From: a virus
Direction: 5' to 3' (one strand)
Length of the DNA: 22,787 nt
Virus record (IMG/VR): IMGVR_UViG_3300025141_015510
Coordinates: 32,001-54,787 of that record
Shown piece after piece: positions 11,966 through 22,787 of the stretch; within the stretch, counting starts at the first letter, position 1, and each line of letters opens with the position of its first letter. Below the pieces are notes generated by a model. The model was not told the origin of the DNA. It ran no database searches and worked only from the letters and a program-made list of their open reading frames with translations. The position numbers and the translations under genes are program-made.

Positions 11966-12400
11966 ATGGCAGGAAAAAAAAACAAATCAGACTCGTATCA
12001 GTATAAAATTATAGAAATACCCATAGATCCCTCATTGTTAGGTGAATTTTCTAACAATGAGGGGTTGGGGGGATTTTTACATATTTCTTCTCATTCAGAA
12101 GAACATGATGAATTAAAAAAACAGTTATTGGTTGAAGTATATAGACTTATTTCAACTGAGCTTACTGCTAGACAGGCAGAAGTAGTATATATGTTTTTAG
12201 AAGGTAAGACTCAAATGGAAATAGCGGAAGTGCTTGGAGTACATCAAACATCAGTACACAAGTGTTTAAAGGGTAATATAGATTACACAAATGGAAAAAA
12301 AAGATATGGTGGGGCCATTAAAAAGTTAAAGAAGCTATGTAAAAAAGATGAAAATATTGGATCTATATTAAAGAGCATTAGATCTTGTAAATTTGATTAA
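11966..12400 (+). CDS. Small protein with sigma region 4-like helix-turn-helix
   Basis: Within the 144 residues, LTARQAEVVYMFLEGKTQME followed by IAEVLGVHQTSVHKCLKG closely follows sigma70 region 4 and the related LuxR/ECF helix-turn-helix ('L-x-x-R-x-x-x-V-x-x-x-x-x-x-G-x-x-x-x-E-I-A-x-x-L-G-x-x-x-x-x-V'). A basic helix (YGGAIKKLKKLCKK) follows. No region 2 is seen, though the first 60 residues are uncharacterised. It has a strong GAGGTGA site. As the last gene before the structured leader and the change to probable virion genes, it is a candidate late-transcription factor. Small split sigma-like proteins are known in phages, for example T4 gp55. It could also be a plain DNA-binding repressor or activator. 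Confidence 0.7.
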   Translation: MAGKKNKSDSYQYKIIEIPIDPSLLGEFSNNEGLGGFLHISSHSEEHDELKKQLLVEVYRLISTELTARQAEVVYMFLEGKTQMEIAEVLGVHQTSVHKCLKGNIDYTNGKKRYGGAIKKLKKLCKKDENIGSILKSIRSCKFD

Positions 12401-12577: not shown

Positions 12578-15500
12578 ATGCTAGAAAATTTTGCGATAGA
12601 TTATAAAGAGATTCTTAATAAGTTAGATGGAAATCAAAACATGAAGCCAGTAAAAGGTAATGAAGACAAGATGATACGAGTTGCCTTTGACTTTTTTAGG
12701 CTTAAGGACGCTGATCCTGAGACACTTTGGCAAGTACAAAAGGCAGATGACGGTCAGGAATATTTAATGAGGACTTTTTCTGATGATGAATCAGAGGAGA
12801 AGTTGAAAGTTGAGTCTGACTGGGATGTACAATTAAACAAAGAGGCGTCAGATCTTACTATATATAAGTCTGATGTACCAGTTCACCGAATGAATTTGGA
12901 TAAGATGAAAATAGGGCGCGAAGAGTCCGAGAGCTTTCGCGCTTTTGTTTTGGGAAAGCTTCGCAGAAAAGATTCTAGTTTCTTACAAAGTCTTGCCATG
13001 GAGATGCCTTTAAATAAGATCGCTTCTCTAAAAAATGCTGGTATTATTGATTTGGATGATACTCGCACTAAGGCAGAATGGGAAGTTTTAAATAAGCAAG
13101 CTGCAGCCGGCACAGAGTTTCTTGAAAGTGTAAATAACTGGTTAAAAGAAGCATATTCATTATTGCCGTATATGTTAAAAAATAAGGCATCACTTACAGC
13201 AATGCTTAAAAATATAAAAGCATCACTTAACAATCATCAAAAATTATGGAATATTCTTCCTGGTGCCCAAGAAATGATTTACAGGGGAGAGATTGGTGGT
13301 AAACTAACTGCCGTTAGGTCTCTTTATCAAAATATGGAAAAAGCTTATGGGCAGATTCAAGAATTTCCATCAAAAAAAGCTGCTATGGCGATGCAGAAAT
13401 TTGCTAGAGCGATACCGCAAAAAATTCGCGTTGAGGGAATTCCTTATTTTTGGGAAAGAGATTATAGAAGGAACCCTATGGGAAATTGGCTTACTCATGA
13501 GGGCTGGTTTACATTTTCTGGCGAAGAAGGATCTTCAAAATATACTCATGCACTAAAAGATAGAAAAGGATATTTATATGTTCGCCTATCTCAAGATAAT
13601 AGTAATGTTACTTTATTGAGTCCTGATATTAAATCAGAGAATGGAGAGATGATAGCTATGTCTATTCCAGGAAATATAGCAAGGAAAAAATTTCCTATTA
13701 CGGACAGAAGTGAACAGAATATTGCCACGGATGATGTTGTTGACTCAGAAGTTACAAGAGCTGTGAAAGATGTAGAATCACTTGTGGAAGAAGGCCGAAG
13801 GCAATCAGATGAGGCATTACAGAGGGTAAAGCGCAAAACCCAAAAACAAAGAAAAAGAAGAAATTACTGGTATAAAGATGCCAATGTTGGCCGAGTACAG
13901 AAATTATTAGGTTTTAGTGGGCGGCAATTAGATAGCAAGTGGGGCCCAAAAACTCGTAATGCGTGGAATACTTTTATAAAGAATAATCCCGCAGCCTCAG
14001 AAGAATATGGAATGAGGCCAATTTCTGGAAGAGCAAAGCCAAACCCAGCAACATTACAGTGGTTTGTTAAGAACTTTAAGGTTTTAAAAGGGCAGACTAT
14101 GGAGGAACTTAGTCAGTGGGCAAAAAAACGACAAACAAAAAAGCCAGCGGCTGTAGCAAAAACACCAACGCCTGGAGCAAAAACACCAACGCCTGGAGCA
14201 AAAAAGCCAGCGGCTGGAGCAAAAACACCAGTAGCTGCGGCAGATGATCAGTGGTCATTAGCTTTTCAAAATCTTAATTTAAAAAAAGAAGCAAAAGAAG
14301 TTACGTCGGCAATTAAGTTGAGCGGGATACCTTATTTCTGGGAGAGAAAAGATAGCATGGGCCTTACAATAAGTGGATGGTTTAAGCATCAAGCTCATGA
14401 ATATTATACCTATAATGACCCAGATGGGAATTTTATTTTATATGTAGAGGCACTTCCCAATGGAAAAGGCGCTAAGATTCAGTCAGTTATGTTGTCTGAT
14501 GGTAACAGAGATATTGAGGCTCCTCCCAAACTAGCAGCAAAGATTTTTCCTATTCGTGGGAGTAGTTCCAAAATGAAAACACTTAAGTCAAAATATGATC
14601 CTGCTCCCAGTGGGAACTCCAGTTGGGTGCCCGAGTGGGGAAATTATATTAAGTATCTAGTTACTACCCAAGAGTTAGCACCTGGGACTGTACTTTCACA
14701 TGATAATATTACTTGGACAAAAAAACAACGCAGAGACCCACAAATTTCATCAGGAGGGTATGTTCCGTATTCTAAGTTGAAGAAAATTATTGGGCATAAG
14801 TTAACTGTACCAGTAAGGGAACATGGTTTAATTCCTTGGTCGGGAATAAAAGGTAATAGAAGGCGCAAGACTCCGCAATCAATACAATATAATGTTTCTG
14901 TCTCTAATGTACAAAAAGTATTAAGTGATTTGGGATATTACAGAGACACTATAGATGGTAAGTGGGGCCCAAATAGCAGAAATGCTTGGAATGCTTTTGT
15001 TGGTAAATTTACCTCATCCTCTCAAAGAAATGGATTAAAAATATATTCAGGAAGACAAAGGCCAAGTGAAAAAGAATTATGGCATTTTATTGGAACATAT
15101 AAAAAGCTAATGACGAATCAGCCAAAAATGGAATTAGATCCCGTAAGAGTTAAGAAAGTAAAGGAAGTGGCCCAGAGAGGTTTTGAAAAAACGAAAGATT
15201 GGGCTTCTCGGCAGATTAGTGATTTTATTTCAGACAAAAAAGCTCCGACTGCTACTGTAAAAAAACAAAAAAAACCTAGCAATGCGCCGTCCTCTGCAGA
15301 TGATCAATGGTCATTAGCTTTTCAAAATCTTAATTTCAAAAAACAAGCAGATTTAATAACTAAAAAACAGCAAATATTAATGGATTTTGACGATTGTATT
15401 GATGACATAAATCGTGCTGCTTGGCTTTATACAGACCATATTCGTCATATAGAAGACAAATGTCCACTAAACAAAGTACAATACTCTGATGGGTTACAAC

Positions 15501-17596
15501 AGGCAATTAAGAATATGCAAAAAATGGCCAAAATTCTTGAAGTAAAAGGTACTGGAACTGATGGTCAATTATTCATGCGTAAATATGTTTGGCAAGTAAT
15601 GAAAATTTGGAAAGCAAATCATAACATTATATATGGTGAATTATCTAAATTAGAAAATATTGTTCGAAAGGAAAAAAAGAGTAAATTTCTTTCTGAACGA
15701 TTAAAATATTATTATAATCAGGGGCAGAAATTTTATGTAACTTTGATTAAAATAAATAGAAGACTTAAAAAGGAAATAAAAAAGGGTGAAGTTTTTCCTG
15801 ATCTTATGATAACAAAGATTGCCGATCCTGAAGAAGAGTTTGGCAGCAAAGAGGAATCATTAGAAGATAGTGATTATGAAGGCAGAATGATGCAAGGAAC
15901 TTATACTGAGCCGCCACATTTTGAAAAAGAAATTGATGTCATGTCTCCCAAAAGTAATGTTCGCAGTCTCCCATTAGATTTAGATGAGTCTGATAATTTA
16001 TCTGAATTAACCGATTATGAATTGGCGGGAATTATTTTAGATGTTACTGAGAAAACAAAAGTAAAAGCTCCTCTGGCAACTAGGCTTATGCCTGATCAGG
16101 GAATGGGATTAGTTCCTGGATCAGAAACTCTAGATGAAGAAGAAAAAGACCATTTGATGGATTTATTAGAAAATGCATCGAAAGAGCTAGATAGAAGACA
16201 GGATCTTTTAGATGAGAAATTGGAAGAGTTTTCGGCTTTACTTAGACAATTTAATGACGGTAAGGCTGGCAGAGAGGGTTCTCCTTCTGAATTAAATTTT
16301 CGTGATGTTTTTGGAGATCTAGATAGAGAAGATCGATATTTAAAAACTATGATAATGGGCTATTTTGAAGATTGGTCGTGGGACTATCATGAAGACTTAG
16401 TTCCCTTAGAGCAAATTAAAAAGATACGCGGCTATATCCAAGAAAAGAGAGATTACCTAGATGAGATTCTGGAGAAAGCTTATGAATTAAAGGATCTTGG
16501 TGGTTTAGATAAAAAAATATTAGATGCCGAAGACCAATATAAAGAAGCGTTTCGTAGACTTGAGCTAAAGAAGCAAGGTGGTCCGAAATGGTTAAAACAA
16601 GAAGAAACTGATTGGGGCGAAGAGCCTGAGTCAGAAGAGATTGACTGGGGCGAAGAGCCTACGCCGATTGAAAAAGAAATTAAAATAGATATTGACTCGC
16701 TAGACGAAGATGAATTTTCCTTTATAGGAGATAGCAATAGACCGGGCGGTATAGATATTATTACAAAAGAATTAAAAGATAAATTTCTTGATTATATGAG
16801 AGATGAGGGGCAAGCGCCATTTGAATTGAAAAAAGATATGGCCGTTAAACTTTCAACTGAAGGTGATAGCGATGGAGAAATATGGTCTCCTGCGATGGTA
16901 CATTTTAATGAAGAAACTGATTGGTGGGAGTGGAAAAAAGAACTACCAGGTTTTAAAGAGGATCAATATAAAGAAGCATTTCAGCAGCCTCAATTAAGCA
17001 AAAAGGCCACTAATATTAAATTGAGAAATTTGATAAGTGATTGGGGAAAAGAAGCTCAAGAATATGCAAAAATGACCCATCCAACCAAGGATCAAAATGG
17101 AGAATTAAGTTATACATTTAGGCCATTTAGGCCACCAATTGTCTTAAGTTCTTTTGATTTTCAACAAATTTTAAATCTTCTTACAGTTGTAGAGAAGAAG
17201 TGGGATGTCGAATTATTCAAAGAATTGATGAAAAAAGTTTCTAACATACATAGTCAAATTAAAAGCAAAACATTATTGAACAGTCACAGTTCCTATTTCA
17301 TGAGTTTTTTCAAAGATGTAGATGAAAAATATAATAAAATAGTGAGATTTTTCAAACGCTATTTAGTTTATAAAACCCCTGTAAAAACTCCTGTAAAAAC
17401 TCCTGTAAAGCTCCCTCATAGCTATAAAGGAAAAAAACCTTCGGCAGGACCAAAAGAATTTCATTTTGATGGTCCAGTAGATGAGCCAGAGCCAATAGAT
17501 GATTCAAAATGGGATTTAGCAGATGATATTCAGTGGAAAAAAGCATTTAGTAGACTTGATGTAAAAAAAAGCAAATATTCAGATAAAAGAGAATAA
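12578..17596 (+). CDS. Giant modular protein (1672 aa): peptidoglycan-binding-like repeats, SAF-like domain, five tag repeats
   Basis: Several modules are visible. Residues 287-294 and 583-590 both read GIPYFWER and open two related domains. Residues 437-480 (VQKLLGFSG, then SKWGPKTRNAW) and about 773-812 (VQKVLSDLGYYRDTIDGKWG) resemble the PG_binding_1 peptidoglycan-binding fold. Residues 692-758 (TTQELAPGTVLSHDNITW, later IIGHKLTVPVREHG) resemble a SAF/type III antifreeze-like domain. A 7-residue Lys/Thr/Pro/Ala linker repeat lies near 522-556. A tag, D/E-D-Q-W/Y-x-x-A-F-x-x-L-x-x-K-K, occurs near residues 556, 908, 1318, 1461 and 1649. The C-terminal half is acidic and helical, with DWGEEP repeated and TPVK three times. 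No signal peptide, protease or hydrolase motif is seen. It is probably a virion component touching the cell envelope, or a polyprotein cut at the tags; neither is proven. AGAGG lies 10 nt before the ATG. Confidence 0.8.
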   Translation: MLENFAIDYKEILNKLDGNQNMKPVKGNEDKMIRVAFDFFRLKDADPETLWQVQKADDGQEYLMRTFSDDESEEKLKVESDWDVQLNKEASDLTIYKSDVPVHRMNLDKMKIGREESESFRAFVLGKLRRKDSSFLQSLAMEMPLNKIASLKNAGIIDLDDTRTKAEWEVLNKQAAAGTEFLESVNNWLKEAYSLLPYMLKNKASLTAMLKNIKASLNNHQKLWNILPGAQEMIYRGEIGGKLTAVRSLYQNMEKAYGQIQEFPSKKAAMAMQKFARAIPQKIRVEGIPYFWERDYRRNPMGNWLTHEGWFTFSGEEGSSKYTHALKDRKGYLYVRLSQDNSNVTLLSPDIKSENGEMIAMSIPGNIARKKFPITDRSEQNIATDDVVDSEVTRAVKDVESLVEEGRRQSDEALQRVKRKTQKQRKRRNYWYKDANVGRVQKLLGFSGRQLDSKWGPKTRNAWNTFIKNNPAASEEYGMRPISGRAKPNPATLQWFVKNFKVLKGQTMEELSQWAKKRQTKKPAAVAKTPTPGAKTPTPGAKKPAAGAKTPVAAADDQWSLAFQNLNLKKEAKEVTSAIKLSGIPYFWERKDSMGLTISGWFKHQAHEYYTYNDPDGNFILYVEALPNGKGAKIQSVMLSDGNRDIEAPPKLAAKIFPIRGSSSKMKTLKSKYDPAPSGNSSWVPEWGNYIKYLVTTQELAPGTVLSHDNITWTKKQRRDPQISSGGYVPYSKLKKIIGHKLTVPVREHGLIPWSGIKGNRRRKTPQSIQYNVSVSNVQKVLSDLGYYRDTIDGKWGPNSRNAWNAFVGKFTSSSQRNGLKIYSGRQRPSEKELWHFIGTYKKLMTNQPKMELDPVRVKKVKEVAQRGFEKTKDWASRQISDFISDKKAPTATVKKQKKPSNAPSSADDQWSLAFQNLNFKKQADLITKKQQILMDFDDCIDDINRAAWLYTDHIRHIEDKCPLNKVQYSDGLQQAIKNMQKMAKILEVKGTGTDGQLFMRKYVWQVMKIWKANHNIIYGELSKLENIVRKEKKSKFLSERLKYYYNQGQKFYVTLIKINRRLKKEIKKGEVFPDLMITKIADPEEEFGSKEESLEDSDYEGRMMQGTYTEPPHFEKEIDVMSPKSNVRSLPLDLDESDNLSELTDYELAGIILDVTEKTKVKAPLATRLMPDQGMGLVPGSETLDEEEKDHLMDLLENASKELDRRQDLLDEKLEEFSALLRQFNDGKAGREGSPSELNFRDVFGDLDREDRYLKTMIMGYFEDWSWDYHEDLVPLEQIKKIRGYIQEKRDYLDEILEKAYELKDLGGLDKKILDAEDQYKEAFRRLELKKQGGPKWLKQEETDWGEEPESEEIDWGEEPTPIEKEIKIDIDSLDEDEFSFIGDSNRPGGIDIITKELKDKFLDYMRDEGQAPFELKKDMAVKLSTEGDSDGEIWSPAMVHFNEETDWWEWKKELPGFKEDQYKEAFQQPQLSKKATNIKLRNLISDWGKEAQEYAKMTHPTKDQNGELSYTFRPFRPPIVLSSFDFQQILNLLTVVEKKWDVELFKELMKKVSNIHSQIKSKTLLNSHSSYFMSFFKDVDEKYNKIVRFFKRYLVYKTPVKTPVKTPVKLPHSYKGKKPSAGPKEFHFDGPVDEPEPIDDSKWDLADDIQWKKAFSRLDVKKSKYSDKRE
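14141..14245 (+). repeat. 21-bp tandem repeat encoding a Lys/Thr/Pro/Ala linker
   Basis: Five 21-bp units start at 14141, 14162, 14183, 14204 and 14225 and encode KPAAVAK, TPTPGAK, TPTPGAK, KPAAGAK and TPVAAAD. Units two and three are identical. The peptide is an extended, probably flexible linker between the first peptidoglycan-binding-like module and the first tag. Copy number probably varies by slippage. Confidence 0.85.
14240..14293 (+). repeat. Tag repeat copy 1 (near-identical DNA to 15296-15349)
   Basis: Eighteen codons here and at 15296-15349 match at 51 of 54 bases and encode ADDQWSLAFQNLN, then L or F, KK, E or Q, A. Adjacent domains are duplicated too but much more diverged, so the tag DNA is either a younger copy or is kept alike by recombination. 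Confidence 0.85.
15296..15349 (+). repeat. Tag repeat copy 2
   Basis: This is the partner of the repeat at 14240-14293, differing at three bases (CAG/CAA, TTA/TTC, GAA/CAA). More distant relatives encoding the same tag pattern lie at 16529-16573, 16958-17005 and 17522-17569. The last falls at the very C-terminus of the protein. Confidence 0.85.
17375..17410 (+). repeat. 12-bp tandem repeat encoding TPVK x3
   Basis: Three 12-bp units (17375, 17387 and 17399) encode TPVK and differ at two bases. They form a short flexible linker before the last segment of the giant modular protein. Confidence 0.8.
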
Positions 17597-17958: not shown

Positions 17959-19611
17959 ATGAGTAATATCACTAACATTAAAAGTGAGGCAGAAAGAGTT
18001 CTAAAGGACTTGGAACGAGGCAATGAATATATTATCTCACGAGTAGATAATAGAATGAGGCAAGCAGTTAATCAATATCCTAGAGATACTGTTATTCGCG
18101 CCGTGGCAGGTGTAGTTGAGCGAATGGCAAGTATTAATCCTAGCAGAGTAATATCTCAAGGAGAAATTAATGAGATTTATAACAATCTTGTAGGATTAGG
18201 ATCTAATACACAGTTTAGAGAAGCATTGGGAGATTTGCTCAATACGCAAATTGAAAAGACTTCCACAACAGATCCGGAGTTTATTTCTAAGAATAGAGAT
18301 ACTGAAGATTCATCTATTGATGTGTTAGGTGGTGTAGATAATGAATTAAAGATTTTATTTGAGCAATCTGAGGATAAATATGATAGAGACAAGATTGCTT
18401 CTGCCAAACATAGGGTTGATTCTGAGCTATCAATGCTTGGATATAAGCAGACACGCACTAAGTTTGCTGGAGGAAATTCACAATTTCTTGTTTTTTCTTC
18501 AGATTTAGACACAAACCGAGGCGCTGTTAGAGTATATATTCCTTGTGAGGCAAAGAGTCAAAACTTACCTTCTGTATTTGTTGCTGGTGATCAATTCATG
18601 GAATTAACGCCTGAAAATATACAGACTCATATTGTAGAATCAGCCAATTTTAGAACAAATCTGCCACCCGTTCATGCTATTCTACATTCTCTTAATATAT
18701 TAACTGCCCAAGCCAAAAAAACAATGCCCGAAAGCGAGTTTAATAAGATAGCGGGGAAAATCCCTACTGATAAGACAATGCCTCTATGTGCTCCGTCACT
18801 ATTGGGAACAATTCCAGAAGAAAAACCTCTTGGAACTGTAGAAATGCCTAAAATAAATGTTCCTGAGCCACTAAAAGTGCTTGCTAATGATATAGAAGAG
18901 AAAATGGTTGAGACTGCTTTAGATTTTCCTTTGGTGTCTGTAAGAGCAGCAAAAAATATGTTAGCCGCAGAGATTAACTCGATGGGATTTTCTGGAACCC
19001 AGATAAAAATTGCTGCTCCCACTTCAGATGGTTTTATTTGTGAGGCTATTATAAATACCCCCAATGGCAAAACTAGTATTGAGGTTCCTATTGAGATGAA
19101 GCAAGATAGGCCATTAATGCCTGCAGTTTTTGCTCAGAGCGATCAAGTGTTTGATTTTGATGAAGAAACTCTCAAAATTTTTATATCTAAAAATGCTAAT
19201 CGCGATACATATATAAACAGAGATAGTCAACTTTTAGATATTGATATTTCTAAGTTGCGGGATTTACTAGTGAAATCTGCCCTTGATAAGAACTTCACCA
19301 CTTGTGATGAAATTTTAGCAGCGGCTTCAGAAAGATTTGATGCTGTTACATATAAAAACTTAGTAACTGATTTTAATTCAATTCTTAAGAATGCTAGCAC
19401 CACAGAGGTAAAATCTAGTTGCCAAAGGCAAGTAAAAAGCCCCAACTCGATTTATAAGTATTGTGGTCATCACAATGTTCCTTTACATGACGTTGTACAA
19501 GATGATGGTGGAAATTGCTGCTTAAAGAAAACATATTTTTCTCGTCAAGCACAAGAGACAGAGGGAGCTATGTTTTCAAGTGCAAGAGTTTTACTTAGCG
19601 AAGAGAAATAA
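17959..19611 (+). CDS. Unknown 550-aa protein with internal duplication, probable structural protein
   Basis: I do not recognise this protein, but it has clear architecture. Residues 1-130 are helical. Residues about 145-234 and 327-417 are diverged copies of one domain. Each begins with a helix and then G-Y/F-x-x-T-x-x-K-x-A (LGYKQTRTKFA and MGFSGTQIKIA), followed by V-x-I/V-P-x-E-x-K, a P-x-V-F-x-x-x-D-Q turn, and an I-x-x-x-A-N end (IVESANFR and ISKNANR). The two are joined by a Pro-rich linker with EEKPLGTVEMPKINVPEPLK. The C-terminus has a Cys/His cluster (YCGHHNVPLHD, then CCLKK), possibly zinc binding, and resembles the one in the next protein. GGAGG lies just before the ATG. Size and position suggest a virion or assembly protein; this is inference. 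Confidence 0.75.
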   Translation: MSNITNIKSEAERVLKDLERGNEYIISRVDNRMRQAVNQYPRDTVIRAVAGVVERMASINPSRVISQGEINEIYNNLVGLGSNTQFREALGDLLNTQIEKTSTTDPEFISKNRDTEDSSIDVLGGVDNELKILFEQSEDKYDRDKIASAKHRVDSELSMLGYKQTRTKFAGGNSQFLVFSSDLDTNRGAVRVYIPCEAKSQNLPSVFVAGDQFMELTPENIQTHIVESANFRTNLPPVHAILHSLNILTAQAKKTMPESEFNKIAGKIPTDKTMPLCAPSLLGTIPEEKPLGTVEMPKINVPEPLKVLANDIEEKMVETALDFPLVSVRAAKNMLAAEINSMGFSGTQIKIAAPTSDGFICEAIINTPNGKTSIEVPIEMKQDRPLMPAVFAQSDQVFDFDEETLKIFISKNANRDTYINRDSQLLDIDISKLRDLLVKSALDKNFTTCDEILAAASERFDAVTYKNLVTDFNSILKNASTTEVKSSCQRQVKSPNSIYKYCGHHNVPLHDVVQDDGGNCCLKKTYFSRQAQETEGAMFSSARVLLSEEK

Positions 19612-21052: not shown

Positions 21053-22787
21053 TTATGTTCAAAATGTTTTAGATAATATTTCCGATTATGGTATGACTCC
21101 CGGATTATGGGACTTAGTAAATAAAGATATAAAAAATATGAAAAATGCGGGTGTTTCTAACAAAAAAGAGAAGACCCTTCTTTTTTATATAAGAAGATTT
21201 TTAAATGACATTTTGGACGAATTCAATACTGAAAGAAGACCCGGCCTTGCTAATGAGGTCTTTTTAGTATTAAAAGACAAGGAAAATATTGGCATAGAAG
21301 ATATAAAAAATGCTGTAGCGAGTTGTTTAAATGTAAAGAAAGCATATCCAAATACTATGGGTGTTTATAGATTATATAATCAAAATAATGTAGACATTAA
21401 TAAATGGATTAGCACAATGGCCCAAATTAATAGTGCTGAGGATAAAATAGAAGCTTTTGGCACATTAACAAACGCATGGAATGAAACAGAAAAATATGAT
21501 TTTATTCAATGGATGAAATACTATGAGGACAATAATCACATGAAATATGGATTTGATAAACAGGCAAATGATCACTTAGATTATGTGCTTGATGAAGATT
21601 TTTTTGGAAAGATACAAGATGCAGAAGATCCAATAATGGTTTCAGAACCAGAAATGGCTGAGCCGGAAATCCCCGAAGCTGTTGCTCCAAAGGCAGAGGT
21701 TTCTTTACAAGATTACAAAGTTAAACTAGTTAGCAGATTAGATTCCGCTGACAAGTTACTTCGTCATTTTAGTCAGGTACTTGATGGTTCGCAGTGGACT
21801 TATCTATATAATACAATAACTAGGCTCAAGGGGGAAATTCAACAGTTGCGTGTGGCTGAGTCGATTAATGATCGTGTTATTAGAGCGGCTAATATATTTG
21901 AAAATAATAATTTTGAAGAAGGAGCCATTGAGCTGAGAAAAGTTGCTGCGCCTATTGGAAATTTAGCTAAGCGCATTGAGGATGCTTTAGAGGGCGGTAG
22001 TAGTGATCAGGGAATGGGAATGGATGAGGGTGGTGATGATATGGGAATGGGTGGTAATGATACTGGTTTGAATGAAAATCTTGATTTGGGATTAGATTCT
22101 GCGGCCCCAGAAGGCGAAATGGCAATGCCGGAAGATACTCCTGAGGGAGATGAAGATATTGCGCCTCCACCGGAAGCCCCACCGGAAGTTCCAGGGGGAG
22201 ATGATTTAGATGTTGAGGAGGATGATCTGCCGGAAGCTAATGAGGATGATTTAGATATTGAAGAACCCGTTGCTGATGAAATGGATGTTGCTGACCCAAT
22301 TGGAGGAGATAACCCCTTTTCCAACTCTAATATAGAAGATGTTGTTAATTTAATAAATCCATTATTACAAAATGCCCGTAATAGAACAAATGTTAGAGTA
22401 CTAACTAAAGCAGATATGATGCTTGACGGTCAGGGAGTTGCTTCGTATCTTCCAGAATTAAGTGAAGCAATTGCGAAACAAATAGAATGTGATAACTATG
22501 TTGCAAATAGGCTAGAAAAAATAATTGGAAAACTACAAGGTAGTCAAGGAGGCGAGGTTCCCGGTGGTATGCCGCCAACTGCTTCTGCGCCGTCTATAGA
22601 GACGGGAGAAATTACCGGAGAAGAAGATATAGAGGTAGAAGAACCTGAAGTGGAGGCTCCAGAGGCTGCTCCAGAAGTTGCTCCAGAAGTTGCTCCAGCG
22701 GCTGCTCCAGAAGTTGCTCCAGCGGCTGCTCCAGAAGTTGCTCCAGCGGCTGCTCCAGAAGTTGCTCCAGCGGCTGCTCCAGAAGTT
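21045..22787 (+). CDS. Acidic Pro/Glu/Ala-rich protein, 3' truncated by window
   Basis: The frame beginning at the ATG at 21045 (GGAG at 21034-21037) stays open for 581 codons to the window end, so the stop lies outside. The N-terminal 200 residues are folded-looking and helical (YVQNVLDNISDYGMTPGLWD, later WISTMAQINSAEDKIEAFGT and YDFIQWMKYY). They are followed by a Glu/Pro segment, a coiled-coil helix (YKVKLVSRLDSADKLLRHFS), and a long acidic Gly/Met/Asp/Pro tract without structure. A second helical domain comes next (IEDVVNLINPLLQNARNRTN through YVANRLEKIIGKL), and the window ends in APEV/APAA repeats. I do not recognise it. Alternating compact helical parts and acidic disordered linkers suggest a virion interior, scaffold-like or linker protein. 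It overlaps the upstream gene by 8 nt. Confidence 0.75.
   Translation, partial: MTNYVQNVLDNISDYGMTPGLWDLVNKDIKNMKNAGVSNKKEKTLLFYIRRFLNDILDEFNTERRPGLANEVFLVLKDKENIGIEDIKNAVASCLNVKKAYPNTMGVYRLYNQNNVDINKWISTMAQINSAEDKIEAFGTLTNAWNETEKYDFIQWMKYYEDNNHMKYGFDKQANDHLDYVLDEDFFGKIQDAEDPIMVSEPEMAEPEIPEAVAPKAEVSLQDYKVKLVSRLDSADKLLRHFSQVLDGSQWTYLYNTITRLKGEIQQLRVAESINDRVIRAANIFENNNFEEGAIELRKVAAPIGNLAKRIEDALEGGSSDQGMGMDEGGDDMGMGGNDTGLNENLDLGLDSAAPEGEMAMPEDTPEGDEDIAPPPEAPPEVPGGDDLDVEEDDLPEANEDDLDIEEPVADEMDVADPIGGDNPFSNSNIEDVVNLINPLLQNARNRTNVRVLTKADMMLDGQGVASYLPELSEAIAKQIECDNYVANRLEKIIGKLQGSQGGEVPGGMPPTASAPSIETGEITGEEDIEVEEPEVEAPEAAPEVAPEVAPAAAPEVAPAAAPEVAPAAAPEVAPAAAPEV
22653..22787 (+). repeat. 24-bp tandem repeat encoding AAPEVAPA, cut by window end
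   Basis: Exact 24-bp units begin at 22701, 22725 and 22749, with a partial unit at 22773-22787. A looser, Pro/Glu/Ala-coding run fills 22653-22700. Each unit encodes AAPEVAPA, a flexible proline-rich linker. The array continues beyond the window, so its full copy number is unknown. Confidence 0.9.

Follow-up and report, generated by a model that had tools for sequence, protein, structure and literature searches.

Large phages are known to process head and ejection proteins, which are mostly single proteins carrying N-terminal propeptides that are cut after Glu. The internal head proteins of T4 have capsid targeting sequences that are cut by gp21 (PMC9026906), and cleaved head and ejection proteins are likewise found in phiKZ, 201phi2-1 and SPN3US (PMC10052503, PMC9026906). 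The proteases of T4, phiKZ and SPN3US cut after Glu, and what they take off is mostly an N-terminal propeptide (PMC10052503, PMC9026906). In phage P1, the short capsid targeting sequence of DarB is sufficient to bring cargo into heads (PMC9024508). Polyvalent proteins of phages and conjugative elements join disparate domains in one virion-linked chain, for which processing has been proposed (PMC5512222).

The window analysed here, a stretch of 22,787 nt, comprises bases 32,001-54,787 of a 54,787-base contig from an uncultivated virus. On its plus strand, which also bears the two neighbouring genes described below, an uninterrupted reading frame (12578-17596) encodes a protein of 1672 aa that consists of an N-terminal domain followed by five segments, each ended by a short tag. 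The tags lie at 14240-14293 (tag 1, ADDQWSLAFQNLNLKKEA), 15296-15349 (tag 2, ADDQWSLAFQNLNFKKQA), 16526-16579 (tag 3, AEDQYKEAFRRLELKKQG), 16955-17008 (tag 4, KEDQYKEAFQQPQLSKKA) and 17519-17575 (tag 5, ADDIQWKKAFSRLDVKKSK), with their Q residues at positions 558, 910, 1320, 1463 and 1652 of the protein. The first-pass annotation had reported five copies, and all five are present; in 20,000 composition shuffles of the protein, tag matches never exceeded one (mean 0.0005), and a sixth copy is absent from all frames of the 54.8-kb contig. The pattern proposed there describes the copies in general but not exactly, as tag 4 (EDQYKEAFQQPQLSKKA) has P where L is conserved and tag 5 contains one inserted residue. 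Tag 5 does sit at the C terminus, ending six residues before the stop. Three of the four internal tags (1, 2 and 4) end in phi-x-K-x-A, while in tag 3 the final A is replaced by G, and the C-terminal tag 5 lacks K-x-A.

The N-domain (residues 1-158; 12578-13051) was modelled by AlphaFold2 with a mean pLDDT of 77 as mixed beta structure followed by helices. Comparison of this fold with the PDB gave nothing significant, and against VIA the best Z was 4.8, to PH-like fragments over about 50 residues, from which no fold assignment was drawn. A single match in BFVD (E 3e-11) is a predicted viral protein of unknown function. Segment 1 contains a 'GIPYFWER' domain (about residues 284-380; 13427-13717) and a peptidoglycan-binding-like domain (about residues 437-490; 13886-14047), the latter recognised by its homology to the PG_binding_1 region of segment 2 and to the relative L016. 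Segment 2 has its own 'GIPYFWER' copy (about residues 580-665; 14315-14572), matched to that of segment 1 by blastp (33% identity, E 6e-8), and a peptidoglycan-binding domain (residues 774-809; 14897-15004; Pfam PF01471, E 4.8e-5, over the cut-off) that PHROG endolysin profiles also match (E 2e-6). Besides these common parts, it includes a SAF domain (residues 693-757; 14654-14848; Pfam PF08666, E 3.9e-5, over the curated cut-off). Segments 1 and 2 have two domains in common, about 33% identical (E 1e-20 and 6e-8), and, judged by these matches, are a diverged duplication of a unit made up of 'GIPYFWER' domain, peptidoglycan-binding domain, linker and tag.

Segment-versus-segment BLAST detected nothing but the tag in common among segments 3-5, and the tag is the sole sequence common to all five segments. 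The earlier statement that the content between the tags differs thus fits segments 3-5 but not segments 1 and 2. The Pfam matches of the 1672-aa protein include no peptidase, long stretches of it are without any assigned domain, and a sequence search found no solved structure. Segment 2 was modelled with a mean pLDDT of 44; the peptidoglycan-binding domain alone is confident, and the model is too poor to bear on the role of the tag.

Relatives were first sought in IMG/VR with a DNA pattern for DDQWxxAFxxL, which returned two real relatives that have the N-terminal domain in common with the window's protein and the middle only in part. Alignments of the N-domain and of the 550-aa protein encoded next to it added many more, all from uncultivated phages, with sizes up to 428 kb. 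Most matches to another pattern, DDEWxxAF, were unrelated proteins. There were no matches to the whole protein, the N-domain or the 550-aa neighbour by tblastn against GenBank phages, nor to exact peptide patterns from the full protein and DnaE in IMG/VR, and a scan of GTDB genomes found no relative of the N-domain.

The first ~158 residues form a conserved family that is normally a stand-alone protein of ~150 aa, and this single-domain form (126-164 aa) accounts for 66 of 67 further distant relatives. Extended forms of 288-1672 aa, with unlike modules and mostly with one to five tags, occur in 14 phages. In a midpoint-rooted N-domain tree these 14 cluster with no short form inside, at a node of weak support (0.15). 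Most carry the QW-type tag of the window or a clear variant, the LAALExxL type; four (L023, L028, L040 and L097) have no clear tag. The orthologue in the closest relative has 622 aa and two tags. That of L017 has 567 aa and two tags, with a cupin-like module ahead of a tag, and in L036 such a module stands behind a tag; the cupin-like and Cys-rich modules of relatives were named by eye rather than by profile search. Across the orthologues the N-domain is always present and tags are mostly retained, but what stands between the tags varies. A cupin-like module much like that of L017 is also present in an otherwise unrelated virion-side gene (L023:17111-18421).

The gene is preceded by one for a sigma-region-4/HTH protein (11966-12400), identified by Pfam Sigma70_r4_2 (E 1e-6) and by synteny, and followed by one for a conserved 550-aa protein (17959-19611), at which the virion-side module begins. 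The 550-aa protein has orthologues in every phage compared, and the order of sigma-like HTH gene, tag gene and 550-aa gene is kept in most relatives. PHROGs gave no match to either the N-domain or the 550-aa neighbour. Two further features of these genomes were recorded. At the contig end (window 22637-22780), a 12-nt tandem repeat encodes (A)PEVAPAA runs in a 590-aa ORF, and RecA-like and UDP-sugar dehydrogenase-like genes of other phages (L043:6321-7880 and L040:6079-8907) are interrupted in frame by long, intein-like inserts.

The first-pass annotation suggested that the tag was a processing or docking signal, by which one gene would yield several proteins with a common address, and proposed a search for it in this contig and related genomes. 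Orthologues do carry copies, again amid unrelated cassettes. Across 2.4 Mb of these phages, DNA coding for [QE]WxxAF occurs in the tag gene of QW-type phages and otherwise as a few scattered single matches. The idea of an address on many proteins was rejected, as the tag is seen in this one gene only. The idea of a signal by which one gene yields several proteins has indirect support in the recurrence of the tags among unrelated cassettes and in the phi-x-K-x-A ending of most internal copies. Over 20 tags from the window gene and its relatives, a K-x-A (or R-x-A) ending is found in 11 of 16 internal tags and 0 of 4 C-terminal ones (P 0.026); among the five internal tags without K-x-A are tag 3 and the two of L017. 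These sequence patterns suggest that the tags are cut sites of the phage's own head-assembly enzyme, yielding separate virus-particle proteins. If each tag is a helix joined to a head-protease site, the gene would encode a processed polyprotein of the head (virion) in a jumbo-like phage clade, a reading that we favour by a modest measure.

The same motif is enriched in virion proteins at large. ORFs of the virion modules contain 201 phi-x-K-x-A sites against 82.7 expected (2.4-fold), and replication ORFs 57 against 63.7; the pooled z is inflated because orthologues are not independent. Taken phage by phage, with the tag gene itself excluded, the virion counts are 60 against 30, 50 against 16, 24 against 13 and 34 against 11, and the ratios are 2.0 in G001, 3.1 in G004, 1.8 in G006 (both stretches) and 3.0 in G008. 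When other tag families are masked, G004 has 34 against 14.8 (ratio 2.3). Ratios are near 1 in non-virion stretches except for the 20-40 kb region of G008, a presumed non-virion control that is enriched largely via a repeated N-terminal hairpin family. The wider phi-x-R-x-A pattern was set aside because a strand of the N-domain yields it. Proteins at L086:13284-20000 (G008) and at L045:1072, 3891 and 6484 (G004) share one hairpin of helices at the N terminus, M-L-K-x-L-I-x-L-A-N-x-L-D-x-x-G-x-x-K-E-A-D-x-L-D-x-x-I-x-K-x-A, that closes with phi-x-K-x-A and may serve as a propeptide for head targeting.

We checked the motif test on SPN3US, in which head cleavage after A-x-E is known by mass spectrometry (PMC10052503). 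The experimentally known motif, [VA]-A-x-E, was found 13 times against 4.9 expected in head proteins and once against 4.2 in the others, and phi-x-K-x-A showed no bias in this phage. An arbitrary control motif reached a z of 4.2 there, so a single z near 4 is not decisive. Bacillus phage G has a weaker phi-x-K-x-A bias (24 against 12.0 in the head region, 23 against 16.9 elsewhere).

Sites of this form also lie where a head protease is expected to cut, which is in favour of cutting: in an extension of the capsid protein, in a pair in the portal and in a protease-scaffold chain. In all five intact copies of the capsid protein that were read, I(V/M)KYA occurs near residue 29, within an N-terminal extension. 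The two phages compared both have paired phi-x-K-x-A sites at around residues 100-125 of the portal. A protein of 1051-1416 aa joins a head-maturation protease domain (PHROG head maturation protease, E 1e-9) to a long chain resembling a scaffold, and several phi-x-[KR]-x-A sites of the fusion are conserved in 5-8 of eight readable sequences; in L048 (3803-7960), the protease domain spans about residues 40-315. The Pfam head-protease profile PF03420 gave no match, and its controls were equally silent. As in prohead-protease systems generally, a head maturation protease is encoded (found in 10 of 15 records) and a short motif is biased to virion proteins (two- to threefold in several phages). 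The five records without the protease gene are all under 84 kb, and the window's contig stops ahead of its own portal, protease and capsid genes. The motif is also present at probably structural places, such as a second site in the capsid protein and, in its R-x-A form, a strand of the N-domain. In G005, the capsid gene is split into four parts within about 4.4 kb (C1:187659-192111), some of them with stops, an arrangement such as introns or insertions might produce.

Another giant protein in the closest relative, at least 3715 aa long, repeats a tag of its own, ASRxDxIxKLA, between its parts, and this tag too has the K-x-A ending. In G004 (L045:8856-20000 and L046:1-6800), virion-side giant proteins of at least 3715 and at least 1832 aa bear the repeated tag ASRxDxIxK(L/I)A.

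How does this arrangement compare with the described systems? The head module of Bacillus phage G (gp19 protease, gp21 and gp27) has a homologous protease and a capsid protein that is 54% identical over 83% of the query. It differs in that gp19 and gp21, which match the ends of the protease-scaffold fusion, are separate genes and in that the capsid extension is absent; tblastn found no tag protein in phage G. With the T4 internal proteins, the tags would have in common a short element that is tied to head targeting and cut or removed by the head protease, the cargo being ejected later. T4 signals are N-terminal, single and cut after a Glu-ending motif, whereas the tags are repeated, internal and terminal, and end in K-x-A. 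In place of a T4-type targeting peptide, the N terminus here is a folded conserved domain, and at the sequence level T4-type cleavage after (I/L)-x-E finds no counterpart in the tags or in the virion sets, where [IL]xE occurs at about 1.1 times. The likeness to phiKZ, 201phi2-1 and SPN3US lies in a large head proteome, many substrates, multiple cuts and a motif bias by the same test. These phages cut after S/A-x-E or A-x-E and nearly always remove N-terminal propeptides, whereas our virion sets have no clear bias for that motif ([SA]xE 0.94 and 1.04 times; [VA]AxE 1.34 and 1.24 times, not significant).

The DarB targeting sequence of P1 resembles the tag in being short, but is single, N-terminal and 30 residues long (PMC9024508). 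Polyvalent proteins are the nearest architectural idea to a tag polyprotein, and several disparate domains are indeed present, SAF and peptidoglycan-binding here and cupin-like or Cys-rich in relatives. Their processing is ascribed to embedded zincin-like peptidases, which are not an absolute requirement of the class, whereas a separate head protease would act here; no repeated inter-domain tag is described in the parts of that account used here (PMC5512222). Within the portion of the literature covered, we found no description of a tag-delimited phage head polyprotein or of a phi-x-K-x-A cutting pattern. Herpesvirus assemblin cuts after Ala, which makes an Ala cutting rule plausible for this enzyme class.

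The conservation of DDQWxxAFxxL reaches well upstream of the K-x-A end, beyond the needs of known prohead-protease sites, and for this reason we think that the upstream helix of the tag probably binds a partner as well. Docking could even be its whole function, with the repeated helices binding one partner (capsid, scaffold or the 550-aa neighbour) through avidity and the chain left intact. A tag copy number that ranges from 1 to 5 and the lack of K-x-A in 5 of 16 internal tags would suit such a role, but it leaves unexplained both the virion-wide phi-x-K-x-A bias and the absence of K-x-A from terminal tags, and we regard it as rather unlikely.

Tags 1 and 2 are identical at 51 of 54 nt, against 36 of 45 for the best-conserved peptidoglycan-binding core of their segments, and modules shuffle among genes and phages. 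Both observations would be expected of a recombination joint, a by-product of cassette duplication or exchange at short conserved DNA with little function of its own. The tag is, however, conserved as protein across diverged phages despite different DNA (41 of 54 nt against L016), and its C-terminal copies are kept with nothing after them, which makes this explanation improbable. It is slightly harder still to see the tags as nothing more than the closing helices of repeated globular domains, which the first-pass annotation had named as grounds for abandoning its proposal. AlphaFold2 does place a helix at tag 2, though with a pLDDT of about 48, but the modules ahead of the tags are unrelated and of unequal length, Pro/Ala/Lys-rich linkers precede tags 1 and 2, and in relatives the tag comes after different modules. 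The least credible alternative is a tail or cell-wall-binding protein whose peptidoglycan-binding and SAF domains act in adsorption with the tags as structural spacers, since these domains, present here, are missing from most relatives and the gene is placed on the packaging/portal side of the virion module.

Under the favoured reading of a processed head polyprotein, a small conserved N-domain protein would have been extended by successive cassettes, each with a tag in which DDQWxxAFxxL, probably helical, runs into the cleavage signal phi-x-K-x-A. The full chain would be assembled into the prohead, where the head-maturation protease would cut after the Ala of the internal tags. Cutting would free the N-domain and several cassette proteins that retain the helix at their C-termini. 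We infer from this scheme that the products reside in the head, where the helix may dock, and that the cassettes (peptidoglycan-binding, SAF and others) could be packaged or ejected cargo, like the internal head proteins that are cleaved in T4 and phiKZ-like phages. A fuller version can be offered only tentatively: that one gene supplies unrelated capsid cargos with a common docking helix, cut in the prohead by a protease of new phi-x-K-x-A specificity, and that the second protein, of at least 3,700 residues, follows the same principle with a different tag. If true, a tag-delimited polyprotein and a Lys-x-Ala rule would make the processing map of an uncultivated jumbo-phage clade readable from sequence, and would represent a modular way to load chosen proteins into phage heads.
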